From the NCBI GenBank assembly GCA_025451095.1, contig JANWLB010000004.1:1-33030 (forward strand): a stretch of 33,030 nt of DNA, in the 5' to 3' direction. Both the position numbers and the translations under genes were made by a program. The notes under the pieces were generated by a model. The model saw only the letters and a program-made list of their open reading frames with translations, searched no databases and had not been told where the DNA came from. This document shows, one piece after another, positions 2,213 through 12,360 of the stretch. This DNA is from Alphaproteobacteria bacterium (GTDB taxonomy: Bacteria > Pseudomonadota > Alphaproteobacteria > Micavibrionales > Micavibrionaceae). Each line of letters starts with the position of its first letter. Positions within the stretch are counted from its first letter, which is position 1.

Positions 2213-3607
2213 ATGTCGGACAAAAAAGACAAGGGCATTAAAGACAAGGGCATTATAGGGACTTTCAATCGTTGCGCCTTCTGCACTGAGCCTTACGAGC
2301 CCAGCATGCCGTTTTATCCCGCGTCGGATGAACACCCCGATATCGCCATATGCGTTGATTGCGTCCTAGAAATATGCGAGGAGATGCGCGGCGAGGGTGA
2401 CCCCGATATGCCGCCGTACTTTGATGCCGATGACTGGGAAGGCCTGCCGGACAAGCCGCGACTCATTGCCCCCAAGGGCGGAAAAACCCCGTCGCAGATT
2501 ATAGACCATCTCAACCAGCATGTGATTGGCCAGGATGGCGCCAAGGAAATCCTGGCGGTTGCCCTGTATAATCACTACAAACGGCTGCGCCACAGCGCCG
2601 ATTCCGCTTCTGCCAAAGGCCGGAGAGACAGGGATCCAGACGACGACGTCGAAATTGAAAAATCGAATGTCCTGCTGCTGGGCCCGACGGGATCGGGCAA
2701 AACTCTTCTGATCCAGACGATGGCGCATCTCCTGAATGTGCCCTTTGCCCACGCCGACGCCACCGCGCTGACCGAGGCCGGCTATGTCGGGGAAGATATC
2801 GAAAGCATTGTCCATTCGCTTCTGCAGTCTGCAGATTATGATGTCGAGCGCGCGCAAACCGGCATCGTTTATATAGATGAAGTTGACAAGATCGCGCGTT
2901 CGGACGAGAACAGATCGATCACACGCGACGTATCAGGCGAAGGCGTTCAGCAGGGCCTGCTGAAAATCATCGAAGGCGCCTCCGTTTCCGTGCCGGCGCA
3001 GGGCGGACGCAAAACATCCAATACAGAGATGGTCAAAGTGGACACGAGAAACGTTCTGTTCATCTGCGGCGGCGCCTTTATCGGACTGGAAGAGATTATC
3101 CAAAAGCGTCTGCAGCAGGGCGGCAAAAGCCTTGGTTTTGGTGCCAATATCGAAAAGCCGGATCCGGCAAAGACCGCCGCGCTTTTGAAGCAGGCGCAAC
3201 CCGATGACCTCAAGAAATTCGGCATGATCCCCGAATTTGTCGGACGCCTGCCCGTCCTGACCACGACCGAGGCGCTCGATGAGGCGGCGCTGATCCGCGT
3301 TCTGACCGAACCCCGAAATGCCCTGATCAAGCAATTCCAGAAGCTCTTTGCCATGGAGCACGTGAAGCTGAGTTTTACGCCGGATGCCGTTTCCGCCATC
3401 GCCAAAAAAGCCATGGCCATGGGCACGGGCGCCCGCGGCCTGCGTGGCATCGTCGAAGGCGCCCTGACATCCACCATGCGCCGCATCCCCGATGAAAAGG
3501 GTATCGCGGAAGTCATCGTTACCGTCGACACAATTAATATCGGCGCTCCGCCCACCTATATCCACAAGGCCGCCGCCCGAACAAGGCCCGTGCCGGCAGC
3601 AGGCTAA
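2213..3607 (+). CDS. ClpX-type AAA+ unfoldase, paralog 1
   Basis: This is a 464-residue hexameric unfoldase of the ClpX family. Visible parts are a C4 zinc-binding domain (Cys21, 24, 47, 50, with a spacing four residues longer than usual), Walker A GPTGSGKT (157-164), pore loop GYVG (190-193), Walker B IVYIDEVDK (218-226) and sensor 2 GARGLR (406-411). The ClpP-docking loop is LGF (307-309), close to the standard IGF. The pore-entrance loop is RKT (266-268) where classical ClpX has RKH. The first 20 residues are Lys/Asp/Gly-rich. It is followed after 42 bases by a second clpX. Neither tig nor lon, the usual neighbours of the housekeeping clpX, is present, so I infer an accessory paralog. No clear promoter was found. 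Confidence 0.9.
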   Translation: MSDKKDKGIKDKGIIGTFNRCAFCTEPYEPSMPFYPASDEHPDIAICVDCVLEICEEMRGEGDPDMPPYFDADDWEGLPDKPRLIAPKGGKTPSQIIDHLNQHVIGQDGAKEILAVALYNHYKRLRHSADSASAKGRRDRDPDDDVEIEKSNVLLLGPTGSGKTLLIQTMAHLLNVPFAHADATALTEAGYVGEDIESIVHSLLQSADYDVERAQTGIVYIDEVDKIARSDENRSITRDVSGEGVQQGLLKIIEGASVSVPAQGGRKTSNTEMVKVDTRNVLFICGGAFIGLEEIIQKRLQQGGKSLGFGANIEKPDPAKTAALLKQAQPDDLKKFGMIPEFVGRLPVLTTTEALDEAALIRVLTEPRNALIKQFQKLFAMEHVKLSFTPDAVSAIAKKAMAMGTGARGLRGIVEGALTSTMRRIPDEKGIAEVIVTVDTINIGAPPTYIHKAAARTRPVPAAG

Positions 3608-3649
3608 GAAAAACATAACAGAAAAAGCGGAACGGGAAGGAACATATAG

Positions 3650-5071
3650 ATGGCAATTTTTGGAGGAGACGTCAGCGCGCATTTCAACGAATGCTCCTTC
3701 TGCGGAATCCGCGCCTCGCAGGCCGAGGTCATGCTGACCGGCGATAGCATCGCCATCTGCGGCGGCTGCGTCGATATTGCCGGAGACCTGGCCCGCCAGA
3801 AAAGAGACGAAAAACACGCGCGCATCATCAGCTTTCCTGAAATGCAAAAGGTCATGACTCCCCGCGCCATCAAGGGATTTCTTGACGATTATGTCGTAGG
3901 GCAGGACCCAGCGAAGAAAGTTCTGGCCGTCGCCGTTTACAACCACTTCAAGCGCCTGCAGACCGAACAGGATCTTGCCGCGATTGAAAAAGAGAAAGAA
4001 GAGAGCAAAAAATACGCGCCAAAAAGGCCCGGCGCGCCTGTAATGGAAGCCGTTACCGTGCCGCCCGAGGTCAGAAAATCCAACGTTCTCGTGCTGGGAC
4101 CGACGGGCTCGGGCAAAACCCTGCTCGCAGAAACCATCGCCCGCTTTCTTGATATTCCGTTCATCGCCGCCGACGCCACCTCCCTGACCGAGGCCGGCTA
4201 TGTCGGCGAAGATGTCGACAGCATGCTCAGCCGCCTTATACAAAAAGCCGACGGCGACATCGAAAAAGCGCAAAGAGGCATTATTTACATCGATGAAATC
4301 GATAAAATCGCCCGCGCCGGCGAAGCCAGATCTTCTTCCAGAGATGTTTCCGGCGAAGGCGTCCAGCAGGGTTTGCTGAAAATGCTTGAGGGCAGCATTG
4401 TGCTGGTGCAGCCTACCGGCAACAAGCGCGGCATTACGCCTGACCCGAAGCCTTTTGACACGCGCAATGTTCTGTTTATATGCGGTGGCGCTTTCAGCGG
4501 CATTGATAAAATCGTCGCCGAGCGCACATCAGGAAGAGGGACCTTGAGCTTTGCCGCCCGGCTGTCCCAGGAAAGCGGCCGGAAGAAGCCGGCGACCGTT
4601 ACGCCGGATGATCTGCATAAATTCGGTATGATCCCGGAATTTGTCGGCCGCCTGCCGATCATCACCTCGACCGAGGCTCTGGATGAAAAGGCGCTGGCCA
4701 AGGTTCTGACGGAGCCAAAAGACGCCCTGGTCAAACAATACCAGCATCTGGCCAGCATGGATGACATCGATCTGGAGTTCACGCCCGGCGCGCTGACGGC
4801 CATCGCCCGGCTGGCGCAGGATCACGGCACCGGCGCCCGCGGCCTGCGCGCGATCGTGGAAGGTCTTTTGCTGGATACCATGTTCGAGCTGCCGGAGCTG
4901 GCCGGGAGATCCGTAAAGAAAGTCGTGGTCACGGAAGCGGCGGTCGAAGGCAAGGCCACACCTCTCCTGCTGCGCGAAAACGAAAGCCTGGAGCAGGCCG
5001 AGGCCAGGGCCACACCACTGGTACTGGCGGCACACCCGCCGGCGCCCTCCCTGCAGCGGACCCCGGGCTGA
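3650..5071 (+). CDS. ClpX-type AAA+ unfoldase, paralog 2 with altered docking loop
   Basis: This 473-residue ClpX-family protein starts at 3650 behind GGAAGGAA. It has a zinc domain (Cys15, 18, 37, 40), a charged linker (about 103-140), Walker A (150-157), pore loop GYVG (183-186), Walker B IIYIDEIDK (211-219) and sensor 2 GARGLR (395-400), so ATPase and unfolding functions look intact. Two functional loops differ from classical ClpX. The RKH loop is replaced by NKRG (258-261). The ClpP-docking IGF is LSF (299-301, context TLSFAARL). The same type of change occurs in the divergent ClpA at 7012-9435. The C-terminus carries a roughly 30-residue Ala/Pro/Glu-rich tail. It lies between clpX1 and clpP and probably serves that ClpP. 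Substrates are unknown. Confidence 0.9.
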   Translation: MAIFGGDVSAHFNECSFCGIRASQAEVMLTGDSIAICGGCVDIAGDLARQKRDEKHARIISFPEMQKVMTPRAIKGFLDDYVVGQDPAKKVLAVAVYNHFKRLQTEQDLAAIEKEKEESKKYAPKRPGAPVMEAVTVPPEVRKSNVLVLGPTGSGKTLLAETIARFLDIPFIAADATSLTEAGYVGEDVDSMLSRLIQKADGDIEKAQRGIIYIDEIDKIARAGEARSSSRDVSGEGVQQGLLKMLEGSIVLVQPTGNKRGITPDPKPFDTRNVLFICGGAFSGIDKIVAERTSGRGTLSFAARLSQESGRKKPATVTPDDLHKFGMIPEFVGRLPIITSTEALDEKALAKVLTEPKDALVKQYQHLASMDDIDLEFTPGALTAIARLAQDHGTGARGLRAIVEGLLLDTMFELPELAGRSVKKVVVTEAAVEGKATPLLLRENESLEQAEARATPLVLAAHPPAPSLQRTPG

Positions 5072-5087
5072 GAGGACACAGGAGACG

Positions 5088-5142
5088 GCCGGCCTTTGTT
5101 TTTACATGATTTTTACGTGTAAAATTATTTGCAAAGACCGGC
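5088..5142. repeat. Nested inverted repeat between clpX2 and clpP
   Basis: The outer arms GCCGGCCTTTG (5088-5098) and CAAAGACCGGC (5132-5142) pair over 11 bases with one G-U. Inside them TTTTACA (5100-5106) pairs perfectly with TGTAAAA (5118-5124). It starts 17 bases after the clpX2 stop and could end the clpX transcript or act as a protein-binding or RNA-processing site. Confidence 0.65.
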
Positions 5143-5157
5143 TATTTGTCCTAATCT
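5129..5157 (+). promoter_or_regulatory. Probable sigma70 promoter of clpP
   Basis: TTGCAA (5129-5134), a 17-base spacer and TAATCT (5152-5157) give a good match to the housekeeping consensus about 95 bases before the clpP start. The -35 overlaps the right arm of the hairpin at 5088-5142. The 13-mer TTTGCAAAGACCG here recurs at 19111-19123, also at a -35 with 17-bp spacing. Confidence 0.55.
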
Positions 5158-5251
5158 GTGCTCTTACACAGACAGAATTATGTAACCAAAGCCGCCTGCG
5201 GGCGCTAAAAGCAAATAAAACACGGATACTTAAAACAGGGAGACGCCGATC

Positions 5252-6139
5252 ATGACAACCCAACCCCTCGCCGCCGCGTTCAACCCCCAGGGCAGTCTGG
5301 TGCCCATGGTCATCGAGAAAACGCATGCCGGCGAGCGCAGCTACGATATTTTTTCACGCCTTCTAAAAGAACGCATCGTTATGCTCTGCGGGCCCGTGAC
5401 TGCGGACAGCGCCCAGCTGATCGTTGCCCAGCTCAAGTTTCTTGATTACACAGACCCCGGAAAAGATATTGAGTTTTTCATTGATTCGCCGGGCGGCAGC
5501 GTCACGGCAGGACTTGCCATTTACGATACCATGAAATCGCTTACCTCGGACGTTGCCACGTATGGCATGGGCTCCTGTGCCTCGATGGGTGCGTTCCTTC
5601 TGTCGATGGGCACACCCGGAAAGCGTTTTGTTTCGCCGAATACAACCGTCATGATTCACCAGCCTCTGGGCGAAGCAAAGGGACAACATACCGAGATTGC
5701 CATCACAGAGAGCTTTATGCACAAGATGCGCTGGCGCCTTGAAAAGCTGCAGGCACATGCCATGAAGCTGACCGACGCAGAATTTGCCGCATTGAGAACC
5801 GCGACCGAGCGCGATTCCTATCTCAACGCCGTAATGGCGCAGAAGCTGGGACTCGTGGATCACATCGCCATGCCCGGAGATGAAGCCTCGCCCATCACGA
5901 GGGAGATCCGGGAAAAAAGAGGCGCGGAAGCCGAGGCCATTCTTGCACAAAGACGGGAGGAAGCCGCCCTTTCCATTGCGATCTCTCTTGAGGAGATTGA
6001 GGACATAGGCGCGGACAATGTGCGATATCCGCTTGGAAACATGAAAGTGATCAAGAGCCTGATGCTCGCCCGCGAAGCCCGGCTGGCCGCCGAGGGCGGC
6101 ACGCCGCCGCAGGCCGCAACGCCTCCGGCCCCGACATAA
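5252..6139 (+). CDS. ClpP-type serine peptidase with C-terminal extension and altered docking cleft
   Basis: This ClpP-family peptidase would form the barrel that degrades proteins fed by Clp ATPases. It starts at 5252 behind AGGGAGACG. It aligns without gaps to E. coli ClpP over the first 140 residues, so numbering coincides with the E. coli precursor: catalytic Ser111 (CASMGAF), His136 (MIHQPLG) and Asp188 (ERDSY) are all present. The length is 295 residues against about 200 for the family. The extra 90 residues (206-295) hold a charged Glu/Arg helix, a segment around [16 protein letters not shown] and a Pro/Ala-rich end. Cleft residues that normally bind the IGF loop are changed, for example Glu74 for Tyr, Ser96 for Phe, Tyr104 for Ile and Ser128 for Leu. 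I infer a specialised second ClpP. Confidence 0.9.
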
Positions 6140-6171
6140 CAACCCTAAAAGCCGGCTTTTCTGCATTTTTT

Positions 6172-6198
6172 AGGGGCCCCTGAAAAAGGGCCCCTTTT
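6172..6198 (+). terminator. Rho-independent terminator after clpP
   Basis: AGGGGCCC (6172-6179) pairs with GGGCCCCT (6188-6195) across an 8-base loop, followed by TTTT. It lies 33 bases after the clpP stop and separates clpP from the pilin-like gene. Confidence 0.8.
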
Positions 6199-6245
6199 AC
6201 TTTCGCCCCCTGTTCGACGCAGGCGCCCTCTGTTAGCATCAGAAC

Positions 6246-6962
6246 ATGAAGTCCCGTACACCGGCCCAATCCGGCAGCATTCTTTTCTATATCCTGATCG
6301 GCATCGTCCTGTTTGCCGCCTTGAGCTTTACCATGAGCCGAATTAACCGTGGCGGGAGCAACTTTGCCGGCGCGGAACAGCTGGGTCTGCGGGCCGGAGA
6401 GATACTGGACTATGCCCGGAGCCTGCGTACAGCCGCACAGACCCTGCAGGCGGCCGGCATTCCCGATACACTGATCAGCTTTGAGAACCCGCAGGAGGCC
6501 GGCTACACCAATGCGTCCTGCGCCAAGGATTCTTGCAAAATTTTTGAGCGGGGCGGCGGCGGGCTTTCCTATACAGACCCTCTGGTCATGTGGCTTGATG
6601 AAAGCCGCAGCGCCAGCCCCAATTTCGGTCACTGGCTCTTTTCCGGCCTGAATGCCGTTACGGACATCGGCACCGACGGCGCAGGAAATTCGTCAGTTGA
6701 ACTTCTGGCGATTCTGCCCTGGATTAAAAAAGACCTTTGCGTAAAACTGAATGACCTTCTGGGCGTCACCAACCCGGGCGGCGACCCGCCGCAGGATCCC
6801 GGCACCGCAGAAGTCAGCGGCAAATTCACGGGCGCCTACAGCCTGTCCCGCACCATTGGCGGCGCAGCGGAAATCGATGGCCAGCGCGCCGCCTGCTTTG
6901 AAGGCGGCGGTGCGCCACCGGCAGGAACCTATCATTTCTTCCAGGTCCTTCTGGCGCGTTAG
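6246..6962 (+). CDS. Single-pass, pilin-like protein of unknown function
   Basis: This 238-residue protein has a short polar N-terminus (residues 1-10) followed by one strongly hydrophobic helix (about 11-27, ILFYILIGIVLFAALSF). The rest is a Gly/Ser/Asp-rich, probably extracytoplasmic domain. The layout resembles type IV pilin-like or pseudopilin-like proteins, but there is no clear prepilin peptidase site with a Glu at +5, so this is only a shape comparison. Three or four cysteines in the soluble part (around residues 92-97, 159 and 219) could form disulfides. No secretion or pilus genes are nearby. It lies after the clpP terminator and converges on the divergent clpA. No clear ribosome binding site was seen. 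Function unknown. Confidence 0.75.
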   Translation: MKSRTPAQSGSILFYILIGIVLFAALSFTMSRINRGGSNFAGAEQLGLRAGEILDYARSLRTAAQTLQAAGIPDTLISFENPQEAGYTNASCAKDSCKIFERGGGGLSYTDPLVMWLDESRSASPNFGHWLFSGLNAVTDIGTDGAGNSSVELLAILPWIKKDLCVKLNDLLGVTNPGGDPPQDPGTAEVSGKFTGAYSLSRTIGGAAEIDGQRAACFEGGGAPPAGTYHFFQVLLAR

Positions 6963-7011
6963 CAGGCTGTCCGCCTGTGCTTCCTGAAATTACCGGGAAA
7001 TAGTGAAAAAA

Positions 7012-9435
7012 CTACGCGGGGGGCGGCAGTTCGGGCGGCGGCAGCGGTGCCGGCAAAACCAGCGGTGGTGGCGATGGAGCATTTTCGGGCGCGGAGGGCT
7101 CCGGCGCCGCCCTGCTGTTGAAATTGAATGTCAGGCTTTCTTTTCCGCCTTCCCGGCTCAACCCCACATCCACATGGCCGCCTTTTTGCAGCGCGCCGTA
7201 AAGGATTTCTCCTGACAGGGGCTTCTTGATCTCTTCCTGGATGACGCGGGCCAGGGGCCGCGCGCCCATCTCCGCGTTATAACCGCGCCGGGAAAGATAA
7301 GCCCGCGCCTCATCGGTCAGGTTGATCGTCACCTTTCTTTCTGTAAGCTGCGCCTCCAGCTCGGCTGTGAATTTTTCAACAACCTGCATGATCGTTTTCG
7401 CATCCAGGCCGGAAAATTCGACAACAGCGTCCAGGCGATTGCGGAATTCCGGCGTGAACAGGCGTCGTATGCTCTCGCTGTGATTGTCATCATCTTGCGA
7501 TTGCACCACACGCCCGCTGAAGTTGAGGTTGCCTTTTTTCTTCTCGCCAGCGCCGGCGTTGGTGGTCATGATCAGGATCACGTTCAAAAACGAAACGGTC
7601 TTTCCATTGTTGTCGGTCAGGCTGGCGTTGTCCATGACCTGCAGCAGAAGGTTATAAATGTCGGGGTGCGCCTTTTCGATTTCATCCAGCAACAGCACGC
7701 AATAAGGCTGCCGGCTGATGGCCTCGGTCAGCAGCCCGCCCTGGTCGAATCCGACATAGCCGGGCGGCGCGCCGATCAGCCGGGCCACGCTGTGTTTCTC
7801 CATATATTCGGACATGTCGAACCGCTTTAACGGCACACCCAGGGTGCTGGCCAGCTCTTTGGCCATTTCCGTCTTGCCCACGCCTGTAGGACCGGCAAAA
7901 AGATAGCTGCCGATGGGCTTGTTCGGGCTGCGCAACCCCGCCCGGGACACGCGGACAGCGGATGCCACGGCATCCACGGCCTTGTCCTGGCCAAAAACCG
8001 TGGCTTTTAGATTCGTATCCAGAAGGCGCAAGGCTTCCTTGTCTCCCCGCGTCACGCTTTTCTCGGGCTGGCGGGCGATGCGGGCGACGATGCGCTCGAT
8101 GTCCCTGACTTCGATCTGCTTGCGCGCCGGGAACTCGCTGCTCATTTTCAGGGACGATCCTGCCTCGTCCATCACATCGATCGCCTTGTCGGGCAGCTTG
8201 CCTTCGCTGATGAATTTTGCCGCCAGTTCAACGCAAGTCTCAATGGCATCGTCCGTGTAGACGACGTCATGCGCCTTTTCATAGGCGGCTTTTAGTCCAA
8301 ACAGGATTTCCTTGGCGGCCTCAAGTGTCGGCTCGGGTATATCGACCTTGCCGAAACGGCGGCGCAAGGCCGGATCTTTCTGAAAATACTTGCGGTATTC
8401 ATCATACGTCGTGCCGCCGATACATTGCAGGCTGCCATCGGCCAATGCCGGCTTGAGCAGGTTCGAGGCGTCAATCGGACTGCCTGCGGCGCCGGCGCCA
8501 ATGACCATGTGCGTTTCATCGATGAACAGGATCACGCCTTCTGTATCCTGCGCTTCCTTGATAAGGTCTTTCATGCGCTGCTCGAACTCGCCGCGATAGG
8601 TCGTGCCCGCGACAAGAAGCCCCATATCGACAGAGAAAATATTCTTTCCTTTCAAAGCCTCCGGCACGCGGCCCTGAACCATCCGCAAGGCAAGGCCCTC
8701 GACGATCGCCGTCTTGCCCACGCCGGGGTCGCCGACCAGAATCGGGTTCCTTTTTTTGCGTTTGCCCAGAACATCCTGCATCCGCAGAATTTCGTTTTCG
8801 CGGCCGATAACGGCGTCGATCTCGCCTTTCATGGCCCGCTGGTTGATATTGACGCAGAATTTCTGCAGCGCCCCGCCTTCCTTTATTTTTGTAAGGCTGG
8901 GGGCTGTCGCCTTGCCTGCTCCCGCAATACTGGAAAGTTTGCCGCCGGTAGTCGGGCCCTTGGCTTCCGGCGGGACAACGACGGTTAAGCCGCCGATGAG
9001 GCGTTTATCCATGTAGGAAAAATCCTTCAGGACGAACTCTGCCGCTTCGAGCTGCATGCCATGTTTTTGCAGCAGGCCCGAGGCGTAGCAGCGCGGCTCG
9101 GCCAGAATGGCCACCAGCAAATCAATTTTTGAAAATTCGTTTGTTTTCCGGTTTTTTTCGCTGTACTGCCCGGCCCGGTATATGCCGGTATGCACAATTT
9201 GCGGCACCGTGATTTTACCGGGAGAGCCGCGCAGGCCGTCGGAATCTTTCAGATATTCTTCGAGATTGTCCCTAATTTCATCGGGCCGGACCCTGAAATA
9301 GACCAGGAAACTCTGTACATCACTGTCCTCGAGCAGGGCGAGCAGCATATGCTCCAGCGTCAGAATATGATGTCTGTTCTGGGCGGCAATCTCATGCGCG
9401 CGCGCATATGTGCTGCTTTTTATAAACTCTCCCAT
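7012..9435 (-). CDS. Divergent ClpA-type double AAA+ unfoldase (ClpA2)
   Basis: This 807-residue class I Clp ATPase has two nucleotide-binding modules: Walker A GDPGVGKT (235-242) with Walker B ILFIDE (302-307), and GPTGVGKT (515-522) with [10 protein letters not shown] (581-590). The pore motif GYVGF is at 559-563. The N-domain (1-150) keeps the Clp repeat start ([13 protein letters not shown]) but then differs strongly from the ClpS-binding ClpA domain. The ClpP-docking loop is LNF (637-639, context NLNFSGRV) rather than IGL/IGF. The C-terminus is a Pro-rich tail (777-807) not present in the neighbouring ClpA. It has its own promoter (9513-9541). I infer partnership with the extended ClpP at 5252 rather than with the housekeeping ClpP. 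Confidence 0.92.
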
Positions 9436-9634: not shown

Positions 9635-11941
9635 TCAGGCGATTTCCTCGTCCGTCTGCTTCTTGCGGCGCAGCGGGGCCTCTTCATCCCGGTCAAAGGC
9701 AAAGACCAGCTTGCCGTCCTTCAGGGTCACGTGGACGACACCGCCGTCCATAAGCTTGCCGAACAGGAGTTCCTCGGCCAGGGGGCGTTTGATCTGTTCC
9801 TGGATCACACGGGCCAGCGGGCGGGCGCCCATCGCCGGGTCATAGCCGGTGCGGGCCAGCCATTCGCGCGCTTCCGTCGAAAGATCGATCGAAACGTTCC
9901 GGTCGGCCAGCTGGCCTTCCAGCTGCATGATAAATTTGTCGACGACGCGGATGACCGTTTCCTGCTTCAGCGGCTTGAACGGCACGACAGCATCCAGGCG
10001 GTTGCGAAACTCGGGCGTGAACAGGCGCTTGATGGCTTCCTGATCATCGTCGATGCGTACATCCCGCTCGAACCCGATCGGCGCGCGCGCCAGTTCCGTG
10101 GCCCCCGCGTTTGTTGTCATGATCACGACGACGCTGCGAAAGTCGATCGTCTTGCCATTATTGTCAGTCAGCTTACCGTAATCCATCACCTGCAGCAGGA
10201 TGTTAAAAATATCCGCATGCGCTTTTTCAATCTCATCGAGCAACAGCACGCTGTGCGGTTGCTTGTCGACCGCATCTGTCAGCAAACCGCCCTGATCGAA
10301 ACCGACATAGCCGGGCGGTGAGCCGATCAGGCGGGAGACTGAATGGCTTTCCATGTATTCCGACATGTCGAAGCGCAGCAGTTCCACGCCCATGGTTTTG
10401 GCAAGCTGGCGCGCCACTTCGGTCTTGCCGACGCCGGTTGGACCGGAGAAAAGGTAGCATCCGATCGGCTTTTCCGCGTCACGCAGACCCGCGCGTGCCA
10501 TTTTGATGGAATCGCACAGCAGATCAATCGCCTCATCCTGATCGAACACCAGCGTCTTGATATCGCGACTCAGATTCTTCAACGCCTCGCGGTCGTCACG
10601 CGTAACGGTCTTGGGAGGAATGCGGGCAATCGCCGAGACAACGCCCTCAATGTCCTTAACGGTGATCGTCTTCTTGCGCTTGGACAGAGGAACAAGCATC
10701 TGGGCTGCACCAACCTCGTCGATAATGTCGATCGCCTTGTCGGGGAGCTTGCGGTCGCCGATATAGCGGGCCGAGAGTTCCACCGCCGCGCGGATGGCGT
10801 CGTTTGTGTATTTCACGCCATGATGCTTTTCGTAGTGGCTCTTGAGTCCCTTGAGAATCTTGACCGTGTCCTCGATGCTGGGCTCGTTGATGTCGATCTT
10901 CTGGAAGCGACGCACCAGCGCGCGGTCCTTCTCGAAATGGTTGCGGTATTCCTTATAGGTGGTCGAGCCAATACAGCGGATCGCTCCGCTGGACAGGGCG
11001 GGCTTGAGCAGGTTGGAGGCGTCCATCGCGCCGCCCGAGGTGGCGCCAGCGCCAATCAGCGTATGAATTTCATCGATGAACAGGACGGCGCCCTTGATTT
11101 TCTCGATCTCGCCTATAACGGCTTTCATGCGCTCCTCAAAATCGCCGCGGTAGCGCGTGCCTGCCAGAAGCGAGCCCATATCCAGCGCGTAGATGATGGC
11201 GCCGCGCAGGACGTCGGGCACATCGTTCTCGACTATTCTTTTTGCCAGCCCTTCGGCGATGGCGGTCTTGCCGACGCCGGGATCGCCGACATAAAGCGGG
11301 TTATTCTTGGAACGGCGGCAGAGAATCTGGATGGTACGGTCAATCTCCTGCTCCCGCCCGATCAGGGGATCGATCTTGCCGCGCCGCGCCTTTTCATTAA
11401 GATTGGCGCAATAGGCCTCCAGCGCATCGCGCGTGGCGCGGCCGCCGGCCGCTTTTTCCTCGCCTTCCGGCTCGGCCCCTTCGGGCGTGCGCATCTCGGA
11501 CTGGCCGGCCACTTTGGCAATGCCATGGGAGATGTAGTTCACCGCGTCGAAACGCGACATATCCTGTTCCTGCAGAAAATAGACGGCATGACTTTCACGT
11601 TCGGAAAACAGCGCGACCAGAACGTTGGCGCCGGTCACTTCCTCGCGGCCCGAGGACTGCACGTGGATCGCCGCCCGCTGCAGAACCCGCTGAAACGCCG
11701 TCGTCGGTTTCGATTCCTCAGCGCTTCGGTTCACAAGATAGGCAAGCTCATTGTCCAGATAATGGCCGAGCTGATCCCGCAGATCCTGCAGCGAGATACC
11801 GCAGGAGCGCAGAACCGCCATCGCATCCTGATCTTCCGTCAGGGCCAGCAGCAAGTGTTCCAGTGTCGCGTATTCATGATAGCGCTCGTTGGCAATCGAG
11901 AGCGCCCGGTGCAGCGTATGTTCAAGATTTCTTGATAACAT
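9635..11941 (-). CDS. clpA: ATP-dependent Clp protease ATP-binding subunit ClpA
   Basis: ClpA unfolds substrates, including N-degron proteins handed over by ClpS, and feeds them to ClpP. I start at the ATG at 11941, which begins the conserved MLSRNLEHTL and lies 14 bases after clpS. This gives 768 residues, as usual. The N-domain (1-145) keeps FQRVLQRA and EVTGANVLVALFSE. Module 1 has GDPGVGKT (219-226) and LFIDEIHT (287-294), module 2 has GPTGVGKT (500-507) and [10 protein letters not shown] (566-575). The ClpP-docking loop is a standard IGF (622-624). One oddity is VFDQDEAI (465-472) where most ClpA proteins have VFGQD. It is the normal member of the two ClpA proteins in this window. Confidence 0.96.
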   Translation of the reverse strand: MLSRNLEHTLHRALSIANERYHEYATLEHLLLALTEDQDAMAVLRSCGISLQDLRDQLGHYLDNELAYLVNRSAEESKPTTAFQRVLQRAAIHVQSSGREEVTGANVLVALFSERESHAVYFLQEQDMSRFDAVNYISHGIAKVAGQSEMRTPEGAEPEGEEKAAGGRATRDALEAYCANLNEKARRGKIDPLIGREQEIDRTIQILCRRSKNNPLYVGDPGVGKTAIAEGLAKRIVENDVPDVLRGAIIYALDMGSLLAGTRYRGDFEERMKAVIGEIEKIKGAVLFIDEIHTLIGAGATSGGAMDASNLLKPALSSGAIRCIGSTTYKEYRNHFEKDRALVRRFQKIDINEPSIEDTVKILKGLKSHYEKHHGVKYTNDAIRAAVELSARYIGDRKLPDKAIDIIDEVGAAQMLVPLSKRKKTITVKDIEGVVSAIARIPPKTVTRDDREALKNLSRDIKTLVFDQDEAIDLLCDSIKMARAGLRDAEKPIGCYLFSGPTGVGKTEVARQLAKTMGVELLRFDMSEYMESHSVSRLIGSPPGYVGFDQGGLLTDAVDKQPHSVLLLDEIEKAHADIFNILLQVMDYGKLTDNNGKTIDFRSVVVIMTTNAGATELARAPIGFERDVRIDDDQEAIKRLFTPEFRNRLDAVVPFKPLKQETVIRVVDKFIMQLEGQLADRNVSIDLSTEAREWLARTGYDPAMGARPLARVIQEQIKRPLAEELLFGKLMDGGVVHVTLKDGKLVFAFDRDEEAPLRRKKQTDEEIA

Positions 11942-11955
11942 GAGGCCTGCTCTCT

Positions 11956-12360
11956 CTATTCCTTTTCCATGGTGCACTGAAGGGGCTGTTCGCTGGCGCG
12001 GGCAAAGTCCATAACCTGCGCCACCTTGGTTTCCGCAACCTCAAACGTATAGATGCCGCAGATCCCGACACCCCGCCTGTGAACATGAAGCATGACGTCG
12101 GTCGCTTCCTGCCTAGTCTTGTTGAAAAACCTTTCCAAAACGTGAACGACGAACTCCATCGGGGTGTAATCATCATTCAGCAGCAAAACCTTGTACATCG
12201 CCGGTTTCTTGGTCCGGGGCCGTGTCTTGAGCAGAAGACCGGTCTGTTTGCGCTCCTGCGGCTCAGCCCCCCCCGGCATGTCCGGAGACGTACCCTCATG
12301 ATCGGGATCCTGGTCATCTCCTGCCATCATCCGTCCGTTATGCCCGCCGTTCTTTTTCAT
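11956..12360 (-). CDS. clpS: Clp adaptor ClpS
   Basis: ClpS recognises proteins with bulky hydrophobic N-terminal residues and delivers them to ClpA. The protein is 134 residues, with a disordered N-terminal tail of about 50 residues followed by the folded core. Core hallmarks are [17 protein letters not shown] (about 56-72), with the NDD(Y)TPMEFV pocket, then [27 protein letters not shown] with the conserved histidines, and TFEVAETKV. The stop lies 14 bases before the clpA start, so the two form an operon. An internal Met at residue 11 or 12 is an alternative start. Upstream runs a phasin gene that ends in its own terminator. Confidence 0.96.

Follow-up and report, generated by a model that had tools for sequence, protein, structure and literature searches.

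A candidate second Clp protease with changed motor docking loops and a changed ClpP cleft at one alphaproteobacterial locus

Judged from its genes, the DNA analysed here stands about an even chance of encoding a second, dedicated Clp protease whose docking interface has been rewired. This stretch, the window, is an entire contig (C4, 33,030 bases) of a draft alphaproteobacterial genome (2.0 Mb, 85% complete, 6.8% contamination). Cells with several Clp proteases need to have their parts sorted, and the role of loop and cleft in partner choice is poorly known. In the mechanism that we propose, ClpX2 and ClpA2, and possibly ClpX1, would deliver substrates to the adjacent ClpP paralog. The motor side would have been remodelled by replacement of the central Gly of the docking tripeptide, by Ser in ClpX2 and by Asn in ClpA2, and the ClpP side by the gain of polar or charged residues in the cleft (K48, E60, S82 and S114) and the disappearance of R192, with a helical C-terminal extension adjoining. 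From left to right, the window carries recR and lolA (minus strand), clpX1, clpX2, the clpP paralog and a pilin-like gene (all plus strand), and clpA2, clpA and clpS (minus strand). The open reading frames of clpX1, clpX2, clpP and clpA2 lie where an initial annotation of this DNA had placed them, and the relevant features are as follows:

2213-3607, plus strand: clpX1, a ClpX paralog of 464 aa with the docking tripeptide LGF, not the housekeeping ClpX
3650-5071, plus strand: clpX2, a ClpX paralog of 473 aa with intact ATPase and zinc-binding motifs and a changed RKH loop
4544-4552, plus strand: LSF docking tripeptide of ClpX2, residues 299-301 (codons TTG AGC TTT)
5252-6139, plus strand: clpP paralog, 295 aa, with altered docking cleft and intact triad (PF00574, 197.8 bits)
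5870-6136, plus strand: C-terminal extension of ClpP, residues 207-295, with helices 214-251 and 264-280 predicted by AlphaFold2
7012-9435, minus strand: clpA2, a ClpA paralog of 807 aa with both AAA+ modules intact
7519-7527, minus strand: LNF docking tripeptide of ClpA2, residues 637-639 (codons CTC AAC TTC)
9635-11977, minus strand: clpA, the housekeeping ClpA, loop IGF
11956-12360, minus strand: clpS adaptor (NF000669, 164 bits against a cut-off of 149)

The separate housekeeping ClpP and motor that an insulated dual Clp system calls for are present in the same genome. As the initial annotation had supposed, a housekeeping ClpP (213 aa) is encoded elsewhere, on contig C3 between tig and lon, and the housekeeping ClpX (434 aa, loop SIGFGA, that is, IGF) on contig C26. 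ClpB is encoded on C79, and C107 and C112 add one further ClpA-like protein and one further ClpP, respectively. In total, the genome has three proteins each of the ClpX, ClpP and ClpA-like types. The window ClpA scores 1125 bits with TIGR02639, above the cut-off of 993.15, and its identity across the family is 75-80%. It is unlikely that the second Clp set is a contaminant of the draft genome, because clpA and clpS, on the same contig, show this level of identity to the family. The housekeeping operon itself (L013:11972-16846) is tig-clpP-lon without clpX, the latter lying on a separate contig.

Both ClpX proteins of the window exceed the equivalog cut-off of TIGR00382 (370.75 bits), with 509 bits for ClpX1 and 487 bits for ClpX2. 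The hallmarks of ClpX (C4 zinc domain, Walker A/B, arginine finger and sensor 2) are found in the alignment, and zf-C4_ClpX was detected in ClpX2. The docking tripeptide [ILVM]-G-F is satisfied by ClpX1 (LGF) and violated by ClpX2 (LSF), whose T298-L299-S300-F301 is encoded by ACC TTG AGC TTT. The two proteins are tandem duplicates that form one clade in the tree (bootstrap 97): after a local duplication, ClpX2 acquired LSF and a loop flank shorter by three residues, and ClpX1 retained LGF. clpX1 is divergent from lolA-recR, related ClpX paralogs are found likewise in genome G119 and, near recR, in G021, and no ClpX2 ortholog above 54% identity was found among 142 genomes of the order. The initial annotation had used ClpX1 as a near-standard comparison, but such a control had to be discarded, as ClpX1 is the sister of ClpX2 and has Leu first in its loop, the housekeeping ClpX (IGF) being that of C26. 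Leu at loop position 1 characterizes the ClpX paralogs of recR or recR-lolA sites (ClpX1, ClpX2 and those of G021 and G119), as against one of 79 other ClpX, and the mutation I268L in E. coli ClpX leads to a severe ClpP-binding defect (PMC7112951). Therefore ClpX1 too, contrary to what was initially thought, may belong to the second protease. The RKH substrate loop reads NKR in ClpX2 and RKT in ClpX1, and its loss in ClpX2 makes a different substrate range likely, by analogy with ClpX2 and ClpX3 of Myxococcus (PMC11423568).

ClpA2 scores 901 bits with TIGR02639, under the ClpA equivalog cut-off of 993.15, which makes it a ClpA paralog and not an equivalog. Its loop, N636-L637-N638-F639, is encoded by AAC CTC AAC TTC, and the LSF and LNF tripeptides reported initially are both confirmed at the codon level. 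To assess how frequent such loops are, loci were collected from 142 genomes of the order, from 385 of the class (queried with ClpX2) and from 80 named clpA loci; the loop sequences read represent a subset of the genomes searched. The central Gly was present in 82 of the 83 distinct ClpX collected and in 93 of 94 ClpA/B-like open reading frames with a readable motif; the sole exceptions are ClpX2 and ClpA2, so that both Gly-less loops sit at one locus, beside the altered ClpP. Two seeming AAF loops were actually FGF, read early. ClpA2-type paralogs occur in about nineteen genomes of the order, and Gly is kept in all those read, in one case as PGF. The loss of Gly in both motors at one locus thus appears unusual; since the chance of co-location is about 1 in 20 (a rough estimate, counting only fast-evolving ClpA paralogs), it is suggestive, short of proof. 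A DNA pattern for ClpX with a non-Gly centre retrieved no true case over the 385 class genomes, a weak negative, given that the pattern failed to pick up even the window genome, where its first Gly codon is GGT. As to the co-occurrence of L[SN]F loops and altered ClpP that the initial annotation had proposed to search for, the pair is found together in the window and the search turned up no further L[SN]F genome, which leaves one case. In E. coli ClpX, loop positions 268, 270 and 274 pack into ClpP (PMC7112951), and hydrophobic residues are retained at the equivalent positions (L-F-L in ClpX2 and L-F-V in ClpA2), as expected if both motors still dock. Some ordinary ClpX and ClpA carry LGF as well (L247; L132).

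The ClpP of the window reaches the PF00574 threshold, conserves the catalytic triad (S97/H122/D171) and is predicted to adopt the ClpP fold (AlphaFold2 mean pLDDT 84.9; target-normalised TM of 0.96 to S. aureus ClpP). With TIGR00493 it scores 218.8 bits, below the equivalog cut-off of 308.6, and it is thus a ClpP-family paralog and not a ClpP equivalog. It aligns without gaps to E. coli ClpP as far as a three-residue insertion, and all seven cleft changes listed in the initial annotation are present (L48K, Y60E, Y62F, F82S, I90Y, L114S and L189A, in mature E. coli numbering). However, E. coli ClpP is a poor reference, because the housekeeping ClpP of this genome already has S60, Y82, V90 and V189; against the latter, the telling changes are L48K, S60E, Y82S, V90Y, L114S and R192G. 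The last had been overlooked, and Arg192 of E. coli ClpP is required for ClpX docking (PMC7112951). Hydrophobic residues occupy seven of 12 cleft positions, versus 10-12 of 12 in housekeeping ClpPs. Among the positions at which 90% or more of the housekeeping ClpPs have a hydrophobic residue, the loss amounted to 4/11 in the cleft versus 5/52 elsewhere (one-sided p = 0.04, uncorrected), a concentration that orthologs do not show. The QxT ring-stacking motif and the AAA+-facing N-terminal hairpin are kept, the hairpin being nearly E. coli-like. Also overlooked was an 89-residue helical C-terminal extension (207-295), absent from the housekeeping ClpP and partly common to the orthologs of genomes G001 and G066. 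In the AlphaFold2 prediction, it starts at about cleft residue 189, next to the cleft, and the long C-terminus of Listeria ClpP2 can fill the docking site (PMC9035409).

The comparison with relatives was informative for both sides of the interface. The congener G001 has the layout of the window (clpP, pilin-like gene, clpA2, clpA, clpS) with the clpX pair missing, and layout variants are found in G066, G021, G119, G022 and G064. In the ClpP tree, the window protein groups with that of G001 (support 0.76) and then, weakly, with that of G066 (0.24). Cleft, residue 192 and loop compare as follows:

Window: cleft 7/12 hydrophobic; residue 192 G; ClpA2 loop LNF
G001: cleft 11/12 hydrophobic; residue 192 K; ClpA2 loop VGF
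G066: cleft 9/12 hydrophobic; residue 192 D; ClpA2 loop VGF
G021: cleft 12/12 hydrophobic; residue 192 H; ClpA2 loop LGF
G022 and G064: cleft 5/12 hydrophobic; residue 192 D; ClpA2 loop IGF
G119: cleft 7/12 hydrophobic; residue 192 H; no ClpA2, ClpX paralog at recR-lolA with LGF

By the closest comparisons, cleft and loops would have diverged together in the window lineage, one lineage, because the orthologous ClpPs at the same clpA-clpS site in G001 and G066 keep a largely hydrophobic cleft and the ClpA2 loop there has its Gly. To this extent the co-divergence of loop and cleft initially proposed holds. It does not extend further: because G119, G022 and G064 pair equally altered clefts with Gly loops, an altered cleft does not predict an altered loop, and the evidence falls short of a general loop-cleft code. 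The ClpP of G022 has lost its N-hairpin.

The clustering of the genes, the separate housekeeping ClpP, ClpX and ClpA, the rare loss of Gly, the orthologs that combine a largely hydrophobic cleft with Gly loops, the intact catalytic and ATPase motifs and the intact N-hairpin are all observed. From them we infer that ClpX2 and ClpA2 would dock on the window ClpP, that the loop and cleft changes would compensate one another and that the second Clp system may be kept apart from the housekeeping set. Against a dedicated protease, the case would come from a single genome, and altered clefts coexist with Gly loops in G022, G064 and G119. The polar cleft residues and the loss of R192 could also merely abolish docking, by analogy with Mycobacterium tuberculosis ClpP2, in which the change of two patch Tyr to Val abolished motor-dependent degradation (PMC4416901). 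A stronger proposal, that of a natural orthogonal docking code in which the ClpX and ClpA families both replaced the central Gly to fit a polar ClpP cleft, with parts not exchanged with the housekeeping protease, is in our view doubtful, though possible.

Three other explanations have to be weighed against the dedicated protease. The window ClpP might stack on a housekeeping ClpP ring in an asymmetric hetero-ring, with the motors docking only on the housekeeping face and the polar cleft marking the non-docking one. The retained QxT motif and the disappearance of R192 and of much of the hydrophobic cleft would fit such an arrangement, for which M. tuberculosis, with docking on the ClpP2 face only, offers a precedent (PMC4416901). 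Yet it gives no reason for the loop changes in two adjacent motors that kept the contact hydrophobics, and the N-hairpin on the AAA+ side closely resembles its E. coli counterpart; we consider this arrangement improbable. We hold it quite unlikely, too, that constraint was simply relaxed, that is, that the second set was weakly selected for docking after duplication, loops and cleft drifting independently and the motors acting perhaps mainly as ClpP-free unfoldases. ClpX2, ClpA2 and ClpP do lie on long branches, many other ClpP paralogs of the order have altered clefts, and the ClpX2 loop flank is three residues shorter, loop-length changes in E. coli being known to lower ClpP affinity (PMC7112951). 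However, in a genome of 2 Mb every open reading frame of the set is intact, the catalytic and ATPase motifs included, the loops are still hydrophobic at positions 268, 270 and 274, and the loss in the cleft is concentrated and not spread.

The last explanation places the specificity switch in Leu at loop position 1 (ClpX1, ClpX2 and ClpA2) together with the C-terminal extension of ClpP, instead of in the loss of Gly, and assigns all three motors to the second protease. It draws on the Leu-first loops of the ClpX paralogs at recR or recR-lolA sites (again versus 1/79), on the LGF of G021 ClpA2, on the severe defect of I268L (PMC7112951) and on the Listeria ClpP2 C-terminus that can occupy the docking site (PMC9035409), considering that the extension of the window ClpP has 89 residues and is predicted to be helical. 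On the other hand, LGF in some ordinary ClpX and ClpA (L247; L132) and in the M. tuberculosis motors means that Leu alone is not insulating, and the ClpA2 loops of G001, G010, G022 and G066 begin with V, M or I; we regard this explanation as unlikely.

Multiple divergent ClpX/ClpP sets are already known from Myxococcus and dedicated pairings from cyanobacteria; what is new here is the paired change of the docking tripeptide. In Myxococcus xanthus (two ClpP and three ClpX, PMC11423568), extra ClpX and ClpP likewise exist beside an essential housekeeping pair and have separate roles, and the RKH loop of the extra ClpX is changed. However, those copies are scattered, whereas the window groups two clpX genes with clpP and clpA2 next to clpA-clpS; the IGF loop goes unmentioned in the text of that paper (PMC11423568). 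Cyanobacteria also have two Clp proteases per cell with assigned motors (ClpX with ClpP1P2 and ClpC with ClpP3R; PMC7966870), but the pairing involves an R motif of ClpC and mixed-subunit cores, whereas the window set has a single ClpP and its changes affect the docking tripeptide and the cleft. ClpP1P2 of M. tuberculosis (PMC4416901) similarly combines a docking-competent ClpP with a paralog whose hydrophobic patch is poor, although its motors retain LGF and dock on one face of a mixed particle, which for the window ClpP would be hypothetical. In Listeria monocytogenes ClpP2 (PMC9035409), a C-terminal tail also lies by the docking site and is able to modulate docking; the tail in the window is unlike it in having 89 residues and two predicted helices, and its contact with the cleft would be an inferred one. 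Being changed on both sides, with more ordinary relatives at the same site, the window set offers a ready test case for specificity residues and might furnish an orthogonal degradation system.

Several further observations concern the locus and its relatives. No convincing sigma-32-type promoter was found 5' of the Clp set. A palindrome, TTTTACA-N11-TGTAAAA (window ~5100-5124), is located upstream of clpP and is a possible operator, and a terminator-like hairpin, GGGGCCCCTGAAAAAGGGCCCC followed by TTTTA (~6173-6194, plus strand), lies between clpP and the pilin-like gene. This gene (6246-6962, plus strand) encodes a short membrane-anchored product with the N-terminus ESGSVLxYIFIAIALFAALSF, for which the family search gave no match and the AlphaFold model was poor. 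In at least nine genomes, homologs of this gene are convergent with clpA, with ClpP alongside or absent. On these grounds, and given that the hairpin terminator separates it from clpP, the gene was treated as a neighbour and not as a Clp partner.

In relatives, ClpP-like paralogs at L111:1140-2021, L122:6723-7406 and L373:1146-2147 have export-signal-like N-termini and polar clefts, and are possibly periplasmic ClpP-like proteases. Complete extra tig-clpP-clpX-lon sets occur in G029 (L123:5229-11067) and G090 (L250:3062-8624); they group separately from the ClpX and ClpP native to the order and are probably horizontal acquisitions. A ClpX-like protein of G001 (L112:3319-4698) has an altered Walker A (GDSGTGKT) and a docking tripeptide that is not recognisable. 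Lastly, ClpP paralogs at L265:6684-10506, L267:6658-10484 and L269:3198-7003 adjoin a large protein of ~960-1000 aa, whose copy in G107 matches the ResB and cytochrome c assembly families.
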